From the NCBI RefSeq assembly GCF_000332095.2, contig NZ_KI913949.1:1760511-1824510 (forward strand): 64,000 nucleotides of DNA. The letters run 5' to 3'. The position numbers and the translations under genes were made by a program. Every line of letters begins with the position of its first letter. The first letter of the stretch is position 1. Under the pieces are notes generated by a model that was given only the letters and a program-made list of their open reading frames with translations, did not search any database and was not told where the DNA came from. Positions 50,012 to 63,496 of this stretch are shown piece by piece. The DNA comes from Leptolyngbya sp. PCC 6406 (lineage in GTDB: Bacteria > Cyanobacteriota > Cyanobacteriia > Phormidesmidales > Phormidesmidaceae).

Positions 50012-52393
50012 CTAGGCGCTATACAAAGCCTGCTGTAACTCGCGTAGGGCTTGCTGATACTGGCTCAGTCCGCCAAAGGCGCGAATCAGCTCCATCGGGG
50101 TGCCCAACTGGCTAAAGGGCGCGATGCTGAGAATCTGGGGTTCTTCAATCGGTTCCACCCCCTCATCGGCGTATTTCTCCAGCAGGGCATTCAGCACGCG
50201 GCGAGCCTGGTCGCCATATTGGGCAAAGTAGTTACGCTGCTTCACCACCTCGGCCCGCTCGCGCCGGGTCAGGGGGGGCCGATCCCAAGCCACATGGCAA
50301 ATCAGGTCAAAGGGGTCGAGATCGCGGCCAATCTCTTCCGCCAGGGCCTCAAAAAATACGCCCTGGTTAGCCAACTCGTCAATAATCGCCTGCTTCTTGT
50401 CGGCATCGCTCCAGCGGCGCAAAAAGTCGTTGAGCGAGGCAAACTCCTTGGCCAAGGTCTTGCGGGTGTAGTCCTTCAGAGATTCGGTAATCAGCTTGCC
50501 ATCGGCATCAAAATATTGCACCCGTTCCGCCGCCACCTTGACCTCGACATTGGCCACCACATAGCGCCGTACCGGACTCCCATCCTCAGTCTCATTTTCC
50601 CTGGTGGTAAAACTACCGAAGTCATCATCTATGGGGTAAATAAAGTCCCCGTCGGTGAGGTCATCAGTAGAATCCTCCACCGGCTCATCGGGCGGTACCG
50701 GCGAGTCGTCTAAATCTTTGGGCTCATAGATCTGCACCGGGTCGCCGTCAAAGTCGGGGTCGGCAAATAGCTCGGTGGCCTTCTTAAAGTCGATGATGGT
50801 GAAGTAAAACTTGCCGTAGTCTTCGTTGATGCGGGTGCCGCGCCCGATGATCTGCTTAAACTCCGTCATCGACAGAATCCGCTGGTCAATCACGATCAGC
50901 TTGCAGGTTTGGGCATCAACCCCGGTGCTCATCAGTTTGGAGGTGGTAGCAATCACCGGGTAGACACTCTCTGGAAAAATGAAGTTATCTAACTCGGCTT
51001 TGCCTTCGGCATTGTCGCCGGTAATGCGCATGACGTACTTTGAGTTCTGGGCCACTAGGTCGCTGTTTTCGTTGTTGAGCGCTTGGCGCATACGTTCGGC
51101 GTGGTCAATGTTTTCGCAGAAGATGATCGCCTTGTCGAAGCGGTTGGTCTGCTTGAGAAACTCTGTAATCTTTTGGGCCACAAGCTGGGTGCGCCTTTCT
51201 AGCACCAGGTTTTTGTCAAAATCACGTTGGTTGTAGATGCGATCTGCGATCGCATTGCCGTACTTATCCACCATGCCCTTGCTGGGTCGCCAGCCCGACA
51301 AATCCTTATCTAGGTCGATGCGTACCACTTTATAGGGGGCCAAAAAGCCATCCTCTATACCCTGCCTGAGGGAGTAGGTGTAGATCGGCTCACCAAAGTA
51401 GTCGATGTTAGAGACCTCTTTGGTTTCTTTAGGGGTAGCGGTAAGGCCAATCTGGGTGGCCGCTGAAAAGTACTCCAAAATCTCCCGCCAGGCAGAATCT
51501 GCCGCCGCACTGCCCCGGTGGCATTCGTCAATCACGATCAGGTCAAAGAAGCCGGGGCTGAATTGCTTGTAGATATTGCTGGCTTCTTCGGCACCGGTCA
51601 CCGCCTGGTACAGAGAAAGGTAAATTTCGTAGGATTTGTTGGCCTGTCGCTTTTGGATCTTGGTCATGGCCGAGCCAAAAGGCTTGAAGTCGTTGGTCAT
51701 GGTCTGATCGACCAGAATGTTGCGATCAGCCAAAAACAGAATGCGCTGCTTGACCTTAGACCGCCAGAGCCGCCAGATAATTTGAAAAGCGGTGTAGGTT
51801 TTGCCGGTGCCCGTCGCCATTACCAGCAGAATGCGGTTTTGCCCCTGGGCGATCGCTTCAATGGTCTTGTTAATAGCCAGAAGCTGGTAGTAGCGAGGGG
51901 TTTTGTTGCTGCCGTCGCTGTAGTAGTCCTGGGTGACTAAGGTTTGCTGGGCGTCGTTGAGCCCCTGGTGGGTCACCCACCACTGCCATAGGGTCGCTGG
52001 CGAAGGAAATTCATCTAGCCCCAGCTCTCGCTCAATGGTGCCGTCGGTGGTGATTTTGTTATGGAACAAGAAGCCGTCGCCGTTAGAGCTAAACACAAAG
52101 GGCACTTGCAACATCTCGGCGTAGCCCAAGCCCTGCTGCATACCATCCCCCAGAGAATGGCTGTTGTCTTTGGCCTCAATCACCGCAATGGGAATATTGG
52201 GCTTGTAGAACAACACGTAGTCGGCCCGCTTGTGCTGAGCGCGGGTATGCAGCTTGCCGCGCACGATGATGCGCCCCTTGGTGAGGGAAAACTCTTCTCG
52301 AATTTGGGTAGCAATATCCCACCCGGCCCGCTCTAGGGCGGGGGTGATGTACTTGGTGCAGATATCGCGTTCGGAGAGTTGCTTTTTGTCCAT
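50012..52393 (-). CDS. hsdR: Type I restriction enzyme endonuclease/translocase subunit
   Basis: A 793-residue motor and nuclease subunit. The N-terminal nuclease domain contains [17 protein letters not shown] (catalytic acidic/Lys motif). The SF2 helicase has Walker [19 protein letters not shown] and QIIGRGTR, followed by the C-terminal helical region. The start at 52393 ([11 protein letters not shown]) is chosen; the in-frame extension to 52462 is unlikely. It is intact, so the system should cut. Confidence 0.94.
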
Positions 52394-52463
52394 GCCTCGC
52401 TGCCTATCCGAACCCTGTCTCTCAGATTGCCGCCAACCCCTTTTCCAGGTGTTGAAAAGCAAA

Positions 52464-54405: not shown

Positions 54406-56709
54406 ATGAAACGTCGTCATTTTCTTCAATTTGCGGGTTCGGCCTTGGCTGCAACAGGATTAAGTCAGACTCGTTTTTTGAGTCAGGCCCATCGCTATGG
54501 CAAGGCCCTAGCCCAGGGGACGCCGCGCAAGTTGGCGCTGTTGATTGGTGTTAACCAATACACCGATCCATTGGTGTCTAACCTGAATGGCTGTCTGACC
54601 GATGTGGAAATGCATTATCAGCTTTTGGTCAATCGCTTTGGCTTTAACCCCAGCGATGTGTTGCAGTTAACGGACGCAACACCGGACATGTTGCCCACCC
54701 GAGCCAACATTTTGCAAGCCTTTGAAGAGCATCTGATTCAGCAGGCACAAGACGGGGACGTGGTGGTGGTGCATTACTCGGGCCACGGGTCGCGGGTGAC
54801 TGACCCGACCCCGACGGCGGGAACCCAGTGTCCAGAGGAAAGCGCCTTGACAGGGCTGAACGGCACCTTGGTGCCTAGGGATGCCAGGGTGGTGGCGGAG
54901 AAGGGTTCAGAACTGGCGGTGACGGACATTATGGGGCGTAGCCTATTCCTCTTGACGGAGCGGCTTCAGACCGAAAACATCACGCTGGTACTGGATAGTT
55001 GTTTTGCGGGGGCCAGTACTCGGGGCAATGCTAAGGTGCGCGCGGCTACGGGAGATCGCCTCTCTCGCCAGACGGGCTTTAGCCTGGTGCCCAGCGAAGA
55101 AGAATTGGAACAGCAGAGACGTTGGTTGGCGGAGCTGGAATGGGATGAAGCGGAGTTTAGTCGGCGGCGCTCCCGAGGGATTGCTAAGGGGGTAGCGATG
55201 GGATCAGCGAGCTGCAATCAAGAAGCCTACGAACTGCCCTATGACGAAGGGAGTCAGGTGGCCGGAGCCTTTACCTATCTGCTCACCAGCTATTTGTGGC
55301 AAATGCCAACGGTGGAAACTGCTCGTGCGATTCAGACCAACTTGGTGCGGAGTACCCGCATTGCTGTCCAGGGTCGAGGTAGCCAGGTACCGACCTTTGA
55401 AGAAAAGCCTAGCAGCAACAACCTCAGCCGCCCGTTGTATTTCAACCAGGCCCCCCCTGCCATAGCGCCTTTTGCCGAGGCGGTGGTCAAAAGTGTGACG
55501 GGTAGCCAAATTGAGTTTTGGCTGGGGGGGTTGTCTTACCAAACCCTGAAGCTGGCACGAGAGGGCACGGTATATACCGTGCTAGATCCAGCGACGACCC
55601 AGGCTTTGGGGGAGGTGGTGTTAAGGTCTCGCAATGGGCTGCTGGCCTACGGCGAACTGGGGGATGGTTCATCGGTGGTGGTGACTCCGGGGATGCTGCT
55701 GCGGGAAAAAGTGGCTGCGATCGCAGATCCAATATTGCGCATTGGCGTAGACTCCTCCCTGGAGTCAGAGCGACAGGCCACAGAAACTGCCCTGGGCACG
55801 GTGCTCAGTCAGGGCGGCAGCAATCGCGTTCAGGTCTTGCCCGTGGATCAACGGTCTGATGTGGAGTATGTGCTGGCCCGCGTTAGCGAAGATCTGCGGA
55901 CCAATCTGTCACCGGGCGGCATGGTGCCCCCCTTGGGGACTGTGGGTCTATTTACCGCCGACCTGAGTCGCTTGGTGCCGAATTCCATCGGGGCCGTCAA
56001 CGAGACCGCCCCGGCAGCGGTGATCCGCCTGCGGCCCCGGTTGGTAAACCTGCTGGTGAATCGGGTGTTGCAAGATTTGGCCAGCACGAACTCCGACTTG
56101 CAGGTGCAGGGGCAAATCGCCAGCAGTCGAGCCGATGGCCCGGTGATTCCGATTTCAGGCCGCAGTAGCAGTCGGGCGAACGAACGCCAATTCTCTACCG
56201 AGGTGTCGCTACTTCCCTACCGGGTTAACGATCGCCTCACGATCAACGTCACCAACCAAGAGTCAGAGGCGGTGTACCTCAGCTTTTTAGTCATTGACGG
56301 CAACGGCAATATCGTTGTGCTGCACCCGGCCAACTGGGACTCCCCCGACGAAGCCGCCCGCATTGACGCGGGGGAATCTGTGACCATCCCTCGGGTCGAA
56401 GATGGGGTAGAGTTTCGGGTCACCGGCGCGGGGTTTGTGGAGTTGTTGACCATTATGAGCCGAGTGCCGCTGCGGGGCCTGTTGCGCAGTCTGCAAACCC
56501 TAGCCCGCAATCGGGGCGACCGCAGTGGTGCGGTGGGCTTTGGAGAAGGTGATCCCCTGAACCTATTGACCAATTTGTTGGGGGATGTAGATCAGGTCTC
56601 GCGATCGGGGAGAAACATTGGAGTTTATCAAATCGGTACTCAAGATACGGCGGTGGACTCTAGTGCGATCGCAGCCTTCTCCACCGTCATTGAAATTGTG
56701 GAAGAGTAG
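54406..56709 (+). CDS. Orthocaspase/metacaspase-like C14 peptidase with Tat-like signal
   Basis: A 767-residue protein. It starts MKRRHFLQFAGSAL, a twin-arginine-type signal with possible cleavage after ALAQG. The p20-like caspase domain (about 42-290) has the catalytic His in VVHYSGHGSR (H127) and Cys in LVLDSCFAGAST (C199). A C-terminal DUF4384-like domain follows (DRLTINVTNQESEAVYLSFLVIDGNGNI). Orthocaspases cleave after Arg or Lys. An exported one would act in the periplasm. It is the first gene of a five-gene run. ATG 54406 is chosen. Confidence 0.9.
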   Translation: MKRRHFLQFAGSALAATGLSQTRFLSQAHRYGKALAQGTPRKLALLIGVNQYTDPLVSNLNGCLTDVEMHYQLLVNRFGFNPSDVLQLTDATPDMLPTRANILQAFEEHLIQQAQDGDVVVVHYSGHGSRVTDPTPTAGTQCPEESALTGLNGTLVPRDARVVAEKGSELAVTDIMGRSLFLLTERLQTENITLVLDSCFAGASTRGNAKVRAATGDRLSRQTGFSLVPSEEELEQQRRWLAELEWDEAEFSRRRSRGIAKGVAMGSASCNQEAYELPYDEGSQVAGAFTYLLTSYLWQMPTVETARAIQTNLVRSTRIAVQGRGSQVPTFEEKPSSNNLSRPLYFNQAPPAIAPFAEAVVKSVTGSQIEFWLGGLSYQTLKLAREGTVYTVLDPATTQALGEVVLRSRNGLLAYGELGDGSSVVVTPGMLLREKVAAIADPILRIGVDSSLESERQATETALGTVLSQGGSNRVQVLPVDQRSDVEYVLARVSEDLRTNLSPGGMVPPLGTVGLFTADLSRLVPNSIGAVNETAPAAVIRLRPRLVNLLVNRVLQDLASTNSDLQVQGQIASSRADGPVIPISGRSSSRANERQFSTEVSLLPYRVNDRLTINVTNQESEAVYLSFLVIDGNGNIVVLHPANWDSPDEAARIDAGESVTIPRVEDGVEFRVTGAGFVELLTIMSRVPLRGLLRSLQTLARNRGDRSGAVGFGEGDPLNLLTNLLGDVDQVSRSGRNIGVYQIGTQDTAVDSSAIAAFSTVIEIVEE

Positions 56710-56781
56710 GGCCGTCCCTGTCCCACTTAGCCCCGTAACTGTTGCTCCCTATCCGCTGGCGATAACCCAGCACCCCTACCC

Positions 56782-58143
56782 ATGGACAACCTGTTTCGAT
56801 ATTGGCAATTAGTGCGGCTGACGGGGGCTGGCAAATGTCAGCGGCAGGTCATTGCCCCCGTCGAGACCTGGCTAAAAACCACCCTGATACCAGAGCTGAC
56901 TGCGGATGCCCTCGAAGAAAAACTGCAACAGGTGCTGCTGCACCGCTGGCGCACGGGTCAGTCCGATGGCGACTTAGCCCAGCTCAGCCTACGGTGTTTT
57001 GTCACCCATCAGATTCGCGGAGTGTGCCTGCGCTTAGCCCAGAAATTTGGGGAAGGCTATGGCTTTAGGGCCACTGACCTGTTTTACCTGGTACTAGATG
57101 ACGATGGCCAGCCGATGCCCCAACACCGGCCCTTGACCCTCGATATTCTAGACACCTACGACCCTAGTCAGTCCGCCCTCACCACCTGGAGCAGTCGGCT
57201 CACTAATAACCACCGGGGGCTGAATCAAGCCCTGTTAGAAAAAGGACTGTATCGGGTTAGTGACTGGGCTATTCTCAATGACACGCGCCCCGAGCAGATC
57301 CAGCGCATTTTGGGGCAATATCACCTGTGCAGCCAGCCAGAAGTCGATCAGGCGACAGATTTGCTGAATCGCTATCAACAGGTCTATCGACGCGATCGCA
57401 TCGTCCAGCGCCAGAGCGGCAAAACCGGGCGCTGCCTCCCGCCCACGCCGACCCAACTCGCAGCCATCAACCCGGATCTATCCGCCAAAGTGGTACTGCA
57501 ACACCTGCAACAACTAGCGACATACCTGCGGCAGTACCGCATCCATGTGCGGGGGGGCAGTCCCCAGATCTACCAGCCGGAAGACCCCGACTGGGAACAG
57601 CAAGAACAAGCCCCCAACGACACCTCTACCAACCCAGAAGAGGATGATCAAGATCAGTTCTTGCAGGTCTATCGTCAGGCTCTAGACCAGTGTTTAGCCG
57701 ATGCGATCGCCCAAGTGCTGCAAGCCAACATCACCCGCTTGCGCAGCCGCACCCCGCCCCAAGATAGAGCCTACATCCAGGGGCTATACCTGCGGCAATG
57801 TCTGGGCCTACCCATGGGTAAACTGGCCCCCCAGATTGGTCTGAGTAGCCAGGTACAGGTGACCCGCCTGCTCAACCTCAAGCGACTGCGATCGGATGTG
57901 CGCCACCGCCTGATTCCCCCACTGTACGAAACCGTGCGGCATCAAGCATTACCCTACGTCTCGGCAGACCGGCTGAAGGCCATTGACCACCGACTAGAAG
58001 ATCTCCTTACCCAGGAAGTCGATCGGATGATTGCGGATGCCGCTGCCGAAGCCCAAGCCCCCAAAGGTCGCCTTGACCAGAGCCTGTTTAGCCATCAGCT
58101 TTGCCAAACCATCCACCCATTCATGCCCGATATTTCATCATGA
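56782..58143 (+). CDS. Sigma-factor-like HTH protein (hypothetical)
   Basis: A 453-residue cytoplasmic protein with no firm family. Near the C-terminus, LGLPMGKLAPQIGLSSQVQVTRLLNLKRLRSDVR looks like sigma region 4 or a similar helix-turn-helix. The N-terminal half (LTNNHRGLNQALLEKGLYRVSDWAIL) is helical, as in large cyanobacterial sigma-70-related proteins. An acidic loop lies at about 275-295. Its location, 72 bases after the caspase gene and directly before DUF1822, suggests a regulator of this locus. Confidence 0.6.
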   Translation: MDNLFRYWQLVRLTGAGKCQRQVIAPVETWLKTTLIPELTADALEEKLQQVLLHRWRTGQSDGDLAQLSLRCFVTHQIRGVCLRLAQKFGEGYGFRATDLFYLVLDDDGQPMPQHRPLTLDILDTYDPSQSALTTWSSRLTNNHRGLNQALLEKGLYRVSDWAILNDTRPEQIQRILGQYHLCSQPEVDQATDLLNRYQQVYRRDRIVQRQSGKTGRCLPPTPTQLAAINPDLSAKVVLQHLQQLATYLRQYRIHVRGGSPQIYQPEDPDWEQQEQAPNDTSTNPEEDDQDQFLQVYRQALDQCLADAIAQVLQANITRLRSRTPPQDRAYIQGLYLRQCLGLPMGKLAPQIGLSSQVQVTRLLNLKRLRSDVRHRLIPPLYETVRHQALPYVSADRLKAIDHRLEDLLTQEVDRMIADAAAEAQAPKGRLDQSLFSHQLCQTIHPFMPDISS

Positions 58144-58184
58144 CTCTCCTTTTCTCCTCCCACTCCCTCAGGAGTCAACCGTCC

Positions 58185-59318
58185 ATGTCCTACCTCAACC
58201 AATTTCCGGATTTTGAGTTTGATGCCCTGTCATCAACGACCGTTTCCCTCACCCCGGCTGCCGTTGCTTGGGCTGTAGACACCTGTCAAACCGTGGCCGC
58301 TACTCAGCAGTGGCAAACTTTTATCAGCGCTATGGCCCTTCAGGGGTTGCGCCAGTGGCTCGCGGCAGGAGCCCAGAACTTTGTCCTGGATATGGCGACG
58401 GTCCAGCTTGCCCCCCATGGGGTGACTTGCCAAGTGAACGGCTTTCGCCTGAGCCTACTCACCCAGGGCAGTCTCAGTGATGAGGTGGCGTTTCTGCCCC
58501 CTAGCGCCCTGACCCAGGATGAGACCAGTCCCCATCTCTACCTCCTCGCCGAGGTTCAGGAGGAAATGGATCAGGTGATAATTCTGGGCGGGTTGAGGTG
58601 CGATCGCATCTTGGCCTACCAGCAGCAAGGCGCTTTAACACCCCAGGCCAATGGCAGTTACCGCCTTCCCGTGACCTGCTTTGACACACCGCCGGAGGAT
58701 GTGCTGCTGTATTTGGGCTGCCTCAACCCAGCCCAACTGCTACCTGTCGCCGCCACTCCAGCCCCAACCCCCAGCCCCGGCTTATCCCCCGTGCAACAGG
58801 GCAGCCACATCAACGTTGGGCGCTGGCTGCGGGATCAGCTCGACGCCGTTGCCGATACCCTCGCCTGGACTCTGTTGCCCCCCCTGGCCACGGCCCATGC
58901 CCTCATGTCCACCAGCACCCCCGCCGAACAGCTCGAAGAAATGCTGAAGGAGATAGAGCTGCGGGGGGTGACGATTCCCCCCACCGCCAAGGGAGCCTAC
59001 ACCGACTTGCAGCCCTTGGGCTCCCCCCTGCGGCTGTATGCCCTGACCTGGCCCCTGTGGACAGTCTCAGTATCGGAGTGGTCGCTGCTGCTCTTTTTAG
59101 GGCCAATTCCGGGGGCAGAAATTCCCCTAGGCACCCATCTGGTGATACAGGATGAAACCATGGTCTTAGCGGAACAAACCGTAGGCCACGGAGATGATTC
59201 CAACTATCTCTATACCCAGGTGATTGGCAGTTGGGAGGAGCAATTTACCGTCACGGTGACGCTACCGGATGGGGTGACTTTTTCTTGGCCGCCCTTTGTG
59301 TTTCGTCCCAGTGTTTAG
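58185..59318 (+). CDS. DUF1822 family cyanobacterial protein
   Basis: A 377-residue protein starting MSYLNQFPDFEFDAL, with AGGAG about 10 bases before ATG 58185; an ATG at 58140 overlapping the previous stop is possible. It fits DUF1822, a family of unknown function confined largely to cyanobacteria and often beside CHAT or caspase genes. There is no signal peptide. The second half has beta-rich segments (LRLYALTWPLWTVSVSEW; GDDSNYLYTQVIGSWEEQF). Confidence 0.8.
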   Translation: MSYLNQFPDFEFDALSSTTVSLTPAAVAWAVDTCQTVAATQQWQTFISAMALQGLRQWLAAGAQNFVLDMATVQLAPHGVTCQVNGFRLSLLTQGSLSDEVAFLPPSALTQDETSPHLYLLAEVQEEMDQVIILGGLRCDRILAYQQQGALTPQANGSYRLPVTCFDTPPEDVLLYLGCLNPAQLLPVAATPAPTPSPGLSPVQQGSHINVGRWLRDQLDAVADTLAWTLLPPLATAHALMSTSTPAEQLEEMLKEIELRGVTIPPTAKGAYTDLQPLGSPLRLYALTWPLWTVSVSEWSLLLFLGPIPGAEIPLGTHLVIQDETMVLAEQTVGHGDDSNYLYTQVIGSWEEQFTVTVTLPDGVTFSWPPFVFRPSV

Positions 59319-59389
59319 AACCGGGATCGGGAGACTGGCATCTGGAGATTGGCATCTGGCGACTGGAACCTGGAAATTGGGGACTGAGA

Positions 59390-61792
59390 ATGAGTCAGAT
59401 AATGTATCGCCTCAACATTCATAAAATTGACCAGAGCTGTCTATTTGAGTTGACCTGGGGGCAGGGGCAGCGAATAACGGCGAGTCTGGCCTTTCCGGCT
59501 CAGCTTTTGGGGCTGTATGAGGCTTGGCGACGGGCCTATCTGGGCTATTACAAACAGGGGCTGCGGGGCCGGGTGGCGGCGGCGGGTCAGGTGGCGGCGG
59601 TGGCCGTAGATTGGCATAGTCAGGTAGTGCAGGCCGAAGCCCGGTTGCTGTCGGAGTTCCACAAGTGGCTCAAGCATGGAGACCTGTTTGACCTGCGGGG
59701 GGAGTTGATGACGGCTTCCCATAGTGGATCAGCCAAGATGGAGCTGTTTCTGACCTGTACACCGCTGGAAATTGCCCGATTGCCCTGGGAGACTTGGGAA
59801 TTTGGTCAACAGGTGCAGATTGTGCGAGCGCCCGCGACAATTCGGGCAGCAACGGTCAGTCGTCAGCCCTTTCGCCGGGGTAAGGCTCGGGTGCTGGCAA
59901 TTTTAGGGGATGAGACAGGGCTGAATTTTGCCGGAGAACGTACAGCTCTCAATGCCCAGAAGAGACTGCTGGATCTGCACTATGTGGGCTGGCAACCGGG
60001 AGAAGAGGCAGCAGCCCTAAAACAGCGAATTTGTCAGACCATTGCCGACCCCTTGGGCTGGGATGTCTTGTTTTTTGCTGGCCACAGTAATGAGGCGGCC
60101 TGGGTGGATGGTCAAGTTGCGATCGCACCTCAAACCGCCATTTCCATCAAAGAACTCAGCCCCTATCTGCAACAGGCCCAGCGCCAGGGGTTGCAGTTTG
60201 CCCTATTCAACTCGTGCAGTGGCCTTGATATTGCCAATGGGCTGATCAACCTGGGTCTGAGCCAAGTGGCGATCATGCGAGAGCCGATCCACAACGAAGT
60301 GGCCCAAACCTTTTTGACCCAGCTTTTGCAGCGGCTGGGTCAAAAAGAGGATGTGCAAGCAGCCCTGCTGGGCACCTGTCAGTTTTTGAAGCTAGAGCAG
60401 CACCTCACCTATCCCTCCGCCTATCTGGTGCCGTCCCTGTTTCGCCATCCCGATTCCGTGCCCTACCAGGTACAGCCCGTGGGCTGGCGATCGCGCCTAG
60501 GGCGCTGGCGACCCCAAAAACGAGAAGTCCTCACCGTCGCCACCCTGGCATTGTTAAGCCTGGTCCCCCCCCTGCACAACCTATTGATGGATCAGCGGAT
60601 TGAAGTCCAAGCCCGCTATCGCGGCTTAACCGCTCAAGTGCCGCCCCCCGTAGCCCCCCCCGTCGTGCTGCTACAAATTGACCAAGAAACCTTTGCGCGC
60701 CAGGGCCTCCGCGACTACAAACCCATCAATCGAGGGTTGCTGGCGGATATTCTCGCGGGTCTCAACCAACAGGGAGCGCAGGTCATTGGGATTGACTACA
60801 TCCTTGATCTGGCCCAGGAAGAGCATGATCAGACCCTCAACCAAGTCATCCGCCAGGGAATTGAGCAAAACCAAATATGGACCGTGTTCATCACTGCCCG
60901 TAATCCCGACGGTCGATGGATTCAACCCTATGGAGCCGTCACCCCCCCGGAATGGATTTTGCAGGGAGATGCCCGCGTTCCCCACTGGTACCTACGACCC
61001 CGATCCTCAAGGGCAGGGCAACCTATACCCTTTAGCTATCAATTGGCCCTAGCCCATCACCTCCAGCAACAGGCCCGTAGCGGCGATCTGGATTTGCCCC
61101 GACCCCGTGTGACCGGGCAACCCCTAGACAGTCAAGTACAGGGCTATTTACGGGAAAACGAGCCCCTATTGCCTCCCCGTGCCGATCTCCATTGGGTGAC
61201 ACGACTGTCTTACAAGCTCCACCAGCGCTGGCTTCAACCCCTACTAGACTTCTCCATTCCGCCAGATCAGGTTTACACGCCGGTGCTGGCGTGGGAATTT
61301 TTGGCCGATCCAGCAGCGGCCCTAGGTCAGGGGACGATCTCCTTGGCGGATAAGGTGGTGGTAATAGCGGCTGGGGGCTACTATGAAGCGGGCCTTTCTC
61401 GGGATGGGGAAGATAATTTACCCCTGCCACCAGGGATGGGCTATTGGCGTAACCGCTTAAACATTGATCGCGTGGGCTTTACCGGCGGTGAGGCCCATGC
61501 CTACATGATTCACCATCTCCTCACTCAGCGTTTGGTATTGCCCATCCCTGACCTAGTCCTTGTGCTGGTGGCAGCCCTAGTGGGGAAGGGCTGGGTTATT
61601 TATTGCACCCCGCGCTCAGGCCAGCGATGGCACATCATTGCGGGGCTGGCGGCAGGAACGGCCCTCTATGGTGTTTTGAGTTTGCAGCTTTATATTTCTG
61701 GGGCGGTGTTATTGCCTTGGCTATTACCGTCATTGACGGTTTGGCTCGTCTGCTGGCCTATTTTCAAGGAGAACAATCGTGAACAGCATTAA
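59390..61792 (+). CDS. CHAT-CHASE2 membrane protein
   Basis: An 800-residue protein with a caspase-like CHAT domain (about 1-365) and a membrane sensor. The catalytic pair is H232 in FFAGHSNEAAW and C276 in FNSCSGLDIANG. One helix (about 380-400), an extracytoplasmic CHASE2 domain (VVLLQIDQETFARQG, IGIDYIL) and three C-terminal helices follow. This layout lets an outside signal control an inside protease. ATG 59390 (MSQIMYRLN) is chosen; the upstream in-frame sequence overlaps DUF1822 and is repeat-like. The stop overlaps the DUF928 start. Confidence 0.88.
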   Translation: MSQIMYRLNIHKIDQSCLFELTWGQGQRITASLAFPAQLLGLYEAWRRAYLGYYKQGLRGRVAAAGQVAAVAVDWHSQVVQAEARLLSEFHKWLKHGDLFDLRGELMTASHSGSAKMELFLTCTPLEIARLPWETWEFGQQVQIVRAPATIRAATVSRQPFRRGKARVLAILGDETGLNFAGERTALNAQKRLLDLHYVGWQPGEEAAALKQRICQTIADPLGWDVLFFAGHSNEAAWVDGQVAIAPQTAISIKELSPYLQQAQRQGLQFALFNSCSGLDIANGLINLGLSQVAIMREPIHNEVAQTFLTQLLQRLGQKEDVQAALLGTCQFLKLEQHLTYPSAYLVPSLFRHPDSVPYQVQPVGWRSRLGRWRPQKREVLTVATLALLSLVPPLHNLLMDQRIEVQARYRGLTAQVPPPVAPPVVLLQIDQETFARQGLRDYKPINRGLLADILAGLNQQGAQVIGIDYILDLAQEEHDQTLNQVIRQGIEQNQIWTVFITARNPDGRWIQPYGAVTPPEWILQGDARVPHWYLRPRSSRAGQPIPFSYQLALAHHLQQQARSGDLDLPRPRVTGQPLDSQVQGYLRENEPLLPPRADLHWVTRLSYKLHQRWLQPLLDFSIPPDQVYTPVLAWEFLADPAAALGQGTISLADKVVVIAAGGYYEAGLSRDGEDNLPLPPGMGYWRNRLNIDRVGFTGGEAHAYMIHHLLTQRLVLPIPDLVLVLVAALVGKGWVIYCTPRSGQRWHIIAGLAAGTALYGVLSLQLYISGAVLLPWLLPSLTVWLVCWPIFKENNREQH

Positions 61793-62507
61793 GGGAATCA
61801 GGGTGGGAATCAGGACATTGGGGAGTGGGATAGCCCTGTTGCTCCTCCTTGGGGTTGCGCCGATAGCCGTAGCCCAGTCTCCAAACCTGCCCAAATTAGG
61901 GCGATGGTCAAGGCTGGTGGATTTTCTGTTTAATAAAGACGATCCTGGCCGTGGCAACAATGGCGGTTCGCGTGGCCCTAATGGACCGGTGTGTGTGGTG
62001 AATCCCGGTGCGGGCGAAACCTTCTGGAGTCAGCAGCCTATGTTTGTCCTGCGGGGAAGCGTGGCCGAAATTGCCCTTCGCCCTGCCGGAGAACCAACTG
62101 CCCTATGGACAGCCCGGTTTCCCTTGGCCCCAATTCAAACAGTGGCGGTGCAGTATGACGGTGTGCCCCTCACGCCCGGCGCAGACTATGAGTGGGTGTT
62201 ATATCAGCGACAGCGCGATCGCAGTTTGAAAGATGTCTTGACCGTGCCCTTTCGGATTATGGAAACCGGGGAAGAGCGCGATCGCATCGCCACCGACCTC
62301 GCCACCTTCCAGACCCAGGGCACTGCCGAGGGAGCCGATGCCGATGCCGGCTACTTCGGATTCGGAGCCCAAGTCACCTACCTCTTTTACAGTGGCTTAC
62401 CCGCCGACGCCTTTCAAGCGCTATTTAGCGTCTCTGAACCCACCGCTGAATTTGTCGCCAGTCGCGAAGCCCTGGTAACGGCGATTTGCCCACCGTTAGA
62501 TAACTAG
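61779..62507 (+). CDS. DUF928 secreted cyanobacterial protein
   Basis: GTG start overlapping the CHAT-CHASE2 gene by 14 bases. A signal peptide ending near VAQS is followed by a Gly/Asn-rich linker and the DUF928 domain (VCVVNPGAGETFWSQQPMFVLRG; YEWVLYQRQRDRSLKDVLTVPFRI). It is a periplasmic or extracellular protein of unknown function. DUF928 genes commonly accompany CHAT-CHASE2 genes in cyanobacteria. It could present a ligand to CHASE2, but that is speculation. Confidence 0.85.
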   Translation: MNSIKGIRVGIRTLGSGIALLLLLGVAPIAVAQSPNLPKLGRWSRLVDFLFNKDDPGRGNNGGSRGPNGPVCVVNPGAGETFWSQQPMFVLRGSVAEIALRPAGEPTALWTARFPLAPIQTVAVQYDGVPLTPGADYEWVLYQRQRDRSLKDVLTVPFRIMETGEERDRIATDLATFQTQGTAEGADADAGYFGFGAQVTYLFYSGLPADAFQALFSVSEPTAEFVASREALVTAICPPLDN

Positions 62508-62563: not shown

Positions 62564-63496
62564 CTAAGGAGCCGGAAGAACTGATTCGGAAGGATCTGGT
62601 TTGGTAATGAAAGTGGTGCGATCGCGGCCTTCTTGCTTGCTGCGATAGAGGGCCATATCGGCGGAATTATAAGCCTCGTCGAACTTGGGGTTGGCGCTTA
62701 GGGACAGAAGCCCAATACTGGCAGTGACCAGAGAAGCTTTTGGCGTTGGTGGTTGCGGACAGGATTCAGGGGCCGAGGATGAATTCGCGGGAAGGGTAAT
62801 AGCCGCGATCGCAGTGCGGATATCCTCTGCAATCTGGTAGCTACGCACCAAGCTGCACCCCACCAAAATCACCGCAAATTCATCCCCTCCGAACCGTCCT
62901 ACGGTATCCACGGCGCGGGTGCGGCAACAGAGAATATGGGCAACGGTCTTGAGTACCAGATCGCCAGTGGCATGGCCGTAGGTATCATTGACCCCCTTAA
63001 ACCCATCCAGGTCCACCAGCATCAATACGTGGCCCAGGCTACTGTTGTCAGCAAAGGTAGCCTGAATCTGCTCAAAGGCCCACTCGATGCCACGACGGTT
63101 CTTAAGCCCGGTTAGGGTATCGGTGAGGGCAAGAAGTTCCGTTTCTTGGAGGTGCTTATGTAACCCCATAAATTTGGGCAAGGTCTTGACCAAAACCCAA
63201 GCGGTCCAAAGACTAATACTGGCGATGATTAGTTTCCAAAACCCCTCTAACCAGTAGTTCCCATACCAAATGTTCCAGGCGGAGAAAACATGCCCGATAC
63301 CACAGCTCAAAATGAATAGGGTAAAAAGAATGATGATGGGGCGGATGGCCTCAGTAGCGCGATCGCGGTTGAGGTACATCATGGTGGGAATAGAGAAATA
63401 GGCAATCGCGATCGCGCTATCCCCCAGCACATGGATCAACGTCAAGGGTCGATTCCATAGAAAGCAATAGCCATGGGGCATGAGGGCAAAAGGCAT
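62564..63496 (-). CDS. Diguanylate cyclase with ethylene-receptor-like membrane domain
   Basis: A 310-residue protein. Three transmembrane helices (about 18-110) contain the ethylene-binding residues of plant ETR1 in the same order and spacing: D26, Y33 and P37 in GDSAIAIAYFSIP, and I62, C65 and H69 in FILSCGIGH. A GGDEF domain follows directly, with DTLTGLKNRRG, active site GGDEF, and the RAVD inhibitory site five residues before it. The Cys and His hold the copper ion in known receptors. The domain match is strong; ligand binding is inferred. Minus strand, facing the caspase operon. Confidence 0.88.
   Translation of the reverse strand: MPFALMPHGYCFLWNRPLTLIHVLGDSAIAIAYFSIPTMMYLNRDRATEAIRPIIILFTLFILSCGIGHVFSAWNIWYGNYWLEGFWKLIIASISLWTAWVLVKTLPKFMGLHKHLQETELLALTDTLTGLKNRRGIEWAFEQIQATFADNSSLGHVLMLVDLDGFKGVNDTYGHATGDLVLKTVAHILCCRTRAVDTVGRFGGDEFAVILVGCSLVRSYQIAEDIRTAIAAITLPANSSSAPESCPQPPTPKASLVTASIGLLSLSANPKFDEAYNSADMALYRSKQEGRDRTTFITKPDPSESVLPAP

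Follow-up and report, generated by a model that had tools for sequence, protein, structure and literature searches.

Kaur et al. (2021, eLife; PMC8195603) described loci in which an ECF sigma factor and a DUF1822 protein lie beside an EACC2-caspase carrying CHASE2 or another sensor, and suggested activation of the autopeptidase with the sigma factor as output; neighbourhoods of the sigma, DUF1822 and CHAT-CHASE2 type are already known from that work (PMC8195603). In type III-E CRISPR CASP systems, Csx29 (TPR-CHAT; H615/C658) cuts Csx30, a two-domain protein that binds CASP-sigma and thereby inhibits it (Strecker et al. 2022; PMC10028731). A CHASE2-WD40-DUF928 cluster is found in Nostoc punctiforme, one of seven surveyed species (Sci Rep 2017; PMC5587647). 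The literature searched held no tested function for either DUF1822 or DUF928. Cyanobacteria commonly carry both families, as they do CHASE2 and CHAT. In the RseA/DegS and RsiW pathways an envelope signal leads through proteolysis to release of a sigma factor.

The locus analysed here lies in a window of 64,000 nucleotides from Leptolyngbya sp. PCC 6406, where four consecutive plus-strand genes (56782-62507) encode a divergent sigma factor, a DUF1822 protein, a CHAT-CHASE2 membrane protein and a secreted DUF928-family protein; their recurrence in relatives gives good support for regarding them as a conserved operon-like module. Like the systems of Kaur et al., the locus combines what may be an N-terminal constant region and a caspase-fold protease, here with the CHAT dyad, with a variable C-terminal sensor (CHASE2) and adjacent sigma and DUF1822 genes. 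It differs from them in that the sigma factor is long, divergent and missed by Pfam, in that DUF928 is a fixed fourth gene, and in that DUF1822 is modelled as a nuclease-like fold plus a beta-sandwich, with no TPRs, for which an anti-sigma role is proposed. With CASP it shares a CHAT protease, a two-domain linker protein and a sigma factor in one locus, as well as the cut of a sigma inhibitor, which in the present case is a proposal only; unlike CASP, the sensor is a transmembrane CHASE2 domain and not crRNA-guided Cas7-11, no similarity to Csx30 was detected, and neither Cas7-11/gRAMP nor a CRISPR array occurs among the four genes and the caspase gene that precedes them. The route from the envelope to sigma resembles that of RseA/DegS and RsiW, but sensor and protease would here be one protein and the anti-sigma factor would be soluble; because the protease would act in the cytoplasm as part of the sensor protein, no site-2 step would be needed. 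As in N. punctiforme, a CHASE2 gene adjoins DUF928, whereas WD40 proteins stand there in place of CHAT, sigma and DUF1822.

To these precedents the present analysis adds the divergent long sigma factor, the fixed DUF928 partner, the DUF1822 fold, the co-diversification of DUF1822 with sigma and a ZAS fusion in distant relatives. If our reading is right, DUF1822 gains a function as an anti-sigma factor, the presence of CHAT proteases next to sigma genes is explained, and the caspase-like-protease-to-sigma logic of a CRISPR system becomes a wider signalling device.

Layout and conservation of the locus

Five plus-strand ORFs occupy 54406-62507 in the ORF listing of the window and, as the earlier note had stated, they are tightly packed, with gaps of 72, -4, 71 and -14 bases in order. 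The most likely start of DUF1822 is 58140, where an ATGA overlap (-4 bases) joins it to the sigma stop, and the same overlap is found in the close relatives L146-L149 and L151. Alignment of homologues places the likely CHAT-CHASE2 start at 59390, not 59231, and the DUF928 gene begins with GTG and overlaps the CHAT-CHASE2 stop by 14 bases. A promoter and terminator scan of the locus was uninformative, with matches at chance level only, and a side-by-side comparison, by eye, of the sequences that precede sigma in close relatives showed no common motif. On the minus strand, 62564-63496 encodes an ETR1_N (ethylene-receptor N-terminal) domain fused to GGDEF and converges on the module; at 50012-52462 (minus strand) lies a large ORF that resembles a helicase or restriction subunit and, judged by eye, is type I R-like.

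When relatives were surveyed for the five-gene order, as the earlier note had suggested, the last four genes were recovered in this order in dozens of loci and the caspase was not. The 80 loci were found via the sigma family, with mechanical ORFs as gene calls: sigma, DUF1822, CHAT-CHASE2 and DUF928 stand complete on one strand in 38; 11 are complete except for DUF928 (3 of them at a contig end), 26 have sigma and DUF1822 only (7 at a contig end), 4 have sigma alone and 1 was unscored. Contig ends thus truncate 10 of the loci outside the 38. The genes overlap or nearly do so, with median gaps of 2, 60 and -8 bases. Neighbourhoods were also collected across the phylum, and of 160 placed DUF1822 genes 51 belong to a complete module of four genes that includes the long sigma factor; the two collections share loci (e.g. 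L111 and L167), so the counts are not all independent.

A paralogous module lies elsewhere in the window genome (L066, at C1:2.32 Mb) and is made up of a small sigma-like gene, DUF1822, CHAT-CHASE2 (CHASE2 3e-40, CHAT 5e-12) and DUF928 (7e-30). The small sigma-like genes of such paralogous modules give an unconvincing 21% in hhalign against the long sigma factor and match Sigma70_r2 only at 0.07; the label 'ECF' is applied to them on the basis of size, position and the literature.

A divergent protein of the sigma-70 family

The first gene of the module (56782-58143, plus strand) encodes a 453-aa protein of what we call the SIG family, which had been described from the sequence as HTH/sigma-like; by profile and model it has a sigma-70 fold with regions 2 and 4. 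Taken alone, the window protein matches no sigma model in Pfam or NCBIfam, and a profile search of PDB sequences with the long family alone gave no match. Profile comparison of the SIG family with its short sigma homologues gives P 97.8% and E 8e-13 over 315 columns; these 390-aa homologues match Sigma70_r4 and Sigma70_r2, and TIGR02937 is matched by 17 of the 42 members of the wider sigma family (best 7e-33).

The AlphaFold model (pLDDT 90, pTM 0.63) agrees with the profiles on a region 4-like helix-turn-helix at residues 327-389 (57760-57948), and a structural match defines a region 2-like domain at residues 14-156 (56821-57249). In the VIA structural search with the model, the best 50 matches were all sigma factors (top Z 8.2, sigma-S); had the list been mixed, a Z of this size would count for little with a helical model, but sigma factors alone make it up. 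Region 2 alone fits sigma domain 2 with an rmsd of 3.5-3.9 over 102-107 residues, the comparators being primary sigma factors that include 9a58, 6eyd, 3ugo and 4ki2. Foldseek E-values of the model are weak (0.12). We consider the sigma identity settled because the short homologues and the fold agree; membership in the sigma-70 family, with regions 2 and 4, is well supported by profile and model, and as such a factor it would be expected to bind core RNA polymerase and to direct initiation. A VRR_NUC match on the same protein (E 0.15) was set aside as noise.

DUF1822, a putative anti-sigma factor

The second gene (58140-59318, plus strand) encodes a DUF1822 protein (PF08852, 2e-20), which we propose to be an anti-sigma factor. 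Its model (pLDDT 85.7) has two domains and a disordered linker: an N-domain folded like a PD-(D/E)XK nuclease (58236-58739), an inter-domain linker with pLDDT below 50 (58755-58790) that is a candidate cleavage region, and a C-terminal Ig-like beta-sandwich (58989-59315). The structural matches of the N-domain are to D212 (Z 8.9), DpnI (7.9) and a Holliday junction resolvase (7.2), and RecU, PvuII and HincII match the same residues; no ExK motif is visible in the family consensus. Neither Csx30 nor a known anti-sigma domain was matched in the fold search, an absence that excludes nothing, and DUF1822 found no match in the PDB by sequence. The TPR nature expressed in the name used in PMC8195603 is not visible in the model.

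The link to sigma is evident from gene neighbourhoods. Among 46 DUF1822 genes collected by DUF1822 alone, regardless of sigma, 40 are directly preceded by a gene of the sigma family or an ECF-like gene. Across a tree of 151 DUF1822 proteins, built with FastTree and hence approximate, the sigma partner class changes 3 times and the CHAT-CHASE2 neighbour 25 times, which argues that DUF1822 evolves with sigma; CHAT-CHASE2 appears to be a swappable input, with DUF1822 staying tied to sigma. A CHAT gene is absent beside the sigma-DUF1822 pair in 31 of 109 cases with the long sigma and in 16 of 22 with the short sigma, and since many pairs thus occur without CHAT, other inputs would exist or act in trans.

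Further evidence comes from genomes of about 2 Mb, without Photo_RC, in another class of Cyanobacteriota (family f31). Here a DUF1822 N-domain (E 9e-16) is fused to zf-HC2 (28.1 bits against a cut-off of 22.2), the zinc finger found in ZAS (zinc-binding) anti-sigma factors, and hhalign relates this DUF1822 domain to the window family (95.9%, E 5e-9). The HxxxCxxC motif is intact in 9 of 30 fusions and degenerate in the rest, and of 18 loci 13 have a sigma gene directly after the fusion; by these matches, a DUF1822 anti-sigma system probably occurs also outside the photosynthetic cyanobacteria. The fusion is the best evidence for placing DUF1822 among anti-sigma proteins, and it is no proof for the ZAS-less cyanobacterial copies: HxxxCxxC is missing in the window protein, and a scan of 160 cyanobacterial copies found it in none, so the window DUF1822 is not classed as a ZAS protein. 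We infer that it functions as an anti-sigma factor that binds and inhibits sigma. In f31 the gene after sigma is often one for a zinc-ribbon AAA/TPR (STAND-like) protein (L232, L233, L234, L271-L285).

The predicted CHAT-CHASE2 receptor-protease and its DUF928 partner

Profiles and hydropathy identify the product of the third gene (59390-61792, plus strand; 800 aa) as a putative CHAT-CHASE2 receptor-protease. The window member matches CHAT weakly (0.007), and all 48 of 48 family members match PF12770 at E 0.01 or better. The intact CHAT dyad reported earlier was borne out: His232 (GHS; codon 60083-60085) and Cys276 (NSCSG; codon 60215-60217) are invariant in 65/65 proteins and likewise in 48/48, and predicted cysteine protease activity of this CHAT domain is well supported. 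The CHASE2 sensor domain (PF05226, 3e-17) spans residues 384-731 (60539-61582), and hydropathy places one transmembrane segment at 380-398 before it and three at 715-787 after it. A basic stretch before the first segment places CHAT and the N-terminus in the cytoplasm and CHASE2 outside, an orientation that the earlier note had also drawn. The alignment shows a conserved region of ~60-100 residues N-terminal to CHAT; searching the PDB by sequence with the CHAT-CHASE2 profile gave no CHAT match.

The C-terminal sensor varies, being CHASE2 here and nSTAND1 in L130. In L130, L132 and L140, CHAT-nSTAND1 replaces CHAT-CHASE2, and the gene after it is a different one, with a product of 405-456 aa; the L130 protein has a GUN4-like end at E 0.02. 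A second CHAT-profile protein of ~900-1160 aa lies inside or beside the module in L117, L120, L151, L156, L158 and L207, and the one scanned, in L117, is a TPR-CHAT protein; a protease cascade is possible in such loci. The 5.8-Mb window genome holds 26 CHAT matches above the family cut-off, so cross-talk is possible; one of them lies directly before the window start (C1:1759683-1760504).

The fourth gene (61779-62507, plus strand) encodes a secreted DUF928-family protein. Secretion, as claimed from the sequence earlier, fits the signal peptide that was found, and placement in the family comes through orthologues: the window member itself has no Pfam match, and 21 of 40 orthologues match DUF928 (PF06051; best 1.6e-7). 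Its overlap with CHAT-CHASE2 is conserved, with a median of -8 bases across 38 loci.

Proposed mechanism and alternatives

With modest confidence, we lean towards the four genes forming a one-step transmembrane unit in which a dedicated sigma factor is controlled through cleavage of a putative anti-sigma protein, DUF1822. An envelope signal, presented or modulated by secreted DUF928, would be sensed by CHASE2, and sensing would switch on the cytoplasmic CHAT protease; CHAT would cut soluble DUF1822, with the disordered linker as the probable site, and the divergent sigma factor would be freed to start its regulon. The domain content of the module is consistent with signal-triggered local cleavage; that DUF1822 is cut, what DUF928 does and what the signal is are inferred. 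DUF1822 as anti-sigma factor, rather than sigma itself, is the most likely target, and its linker layout resembles that of Csx30, which is cut by Csx29, an analogy that favours the cleavage model. We offer more tentatively, as possible yet somewhat short of probable, the fuller reading that DUF1822 is a new anti-sigma class dating back to the divergence of photosynthetic from non-photosynthetic Cyanobacteriota, and that a single-protein CHAT-CHASE2 receptor-protease cuts it from the cytoplasmic side to free sigma, which would give envelope signals a second route to sigma besides intramembrane proteolysis.

It is unlikely that CHAT instead cuts sigma itself, as a pro-sigma inhibited by its long N-terminal and middle parts, with DUF1822, a dead nuclease fold, serving as scaffold or DNA-binding cofactor. 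The sigma factor is roughly double an ECF sigma factor in size, regions 2 and 4 are separated by a long stretch of low conservation (residues 260-290; pLDDT in the 50s), and the nuclease-like N-domain of DUF1822 may bind DNA, as such a reading would expect; the DUF1822-sigma pair nevertheless persists without CHAT, and also with small sigma-like genes that have no extra parts, and the ZAS fusion in relatives points to an anti-sigma role.

We are equally doubtful of an immune or cell-death module in which sensing of an invader or of damage would lead through CHAT autoproteolysis to death, with sigma as a secondary output. The same domain set appears in Kaur et al. 2021 (PMC8195603), and the variation in C-terminal sensors, with nSTAND1 in L130 as one case, would suit such a role; but no effector domain occurs among the module genes, PADLOC returned nothing beyond a generic caspase match on the non-conserved caspase gene, and the broad, stably paired distribution and the envelope-type sensor fit signalling better.

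The caspase upstream of the module

The remaining gene of the five (54406-56709, plus strand) encodes an orthocaspase that is probably exported, with Peptidase_C14 (6e-19) and DUF4384 (1e-9) as its Pfam matches. The dyad ascribed to it earlier was found again in the motifs GHG (residue 126) and DSC (197), a weak Tat-like signal fits the export, and in keeping with the orthocaspase assignment the p20 domain carries the His/Cys dyad. The claim that it belongs to the operon did not survive: the caspase is the upstream same-strand neighbour in 0 of 38 complete four-gene loci, and gene order in relatives rules it out as a module member. Only 5 of 80 loci (L146, L154, L155, L197 and L201) have a DUF4384 caspase elsewhere within 8 kb of the module, on either strand and at varied positions. 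The window genome has three DUF4384-caspase genes or fragments, a number at which about 1% would be expected near the module by chance. The caspase may be loosely associated with the module, and it stands outside the conserved operon. That all five genes form one functional operon is quite improbable, for although the caspase-sigma gap is just 72 bases and the 5 loci exceed the chance expectation, the position and strand of the caspase vary, three of the five loci come from one genus, Nodosilinea, and a Tat-exported protease would be in the wrong compartment for cytoplasmic partners.

Caspase-family genes also lie near or directly upstream of pairs of short sigma and DUF1822 without CHAT in L070-L073, L076 and L077, where caspases may replace CHAT.
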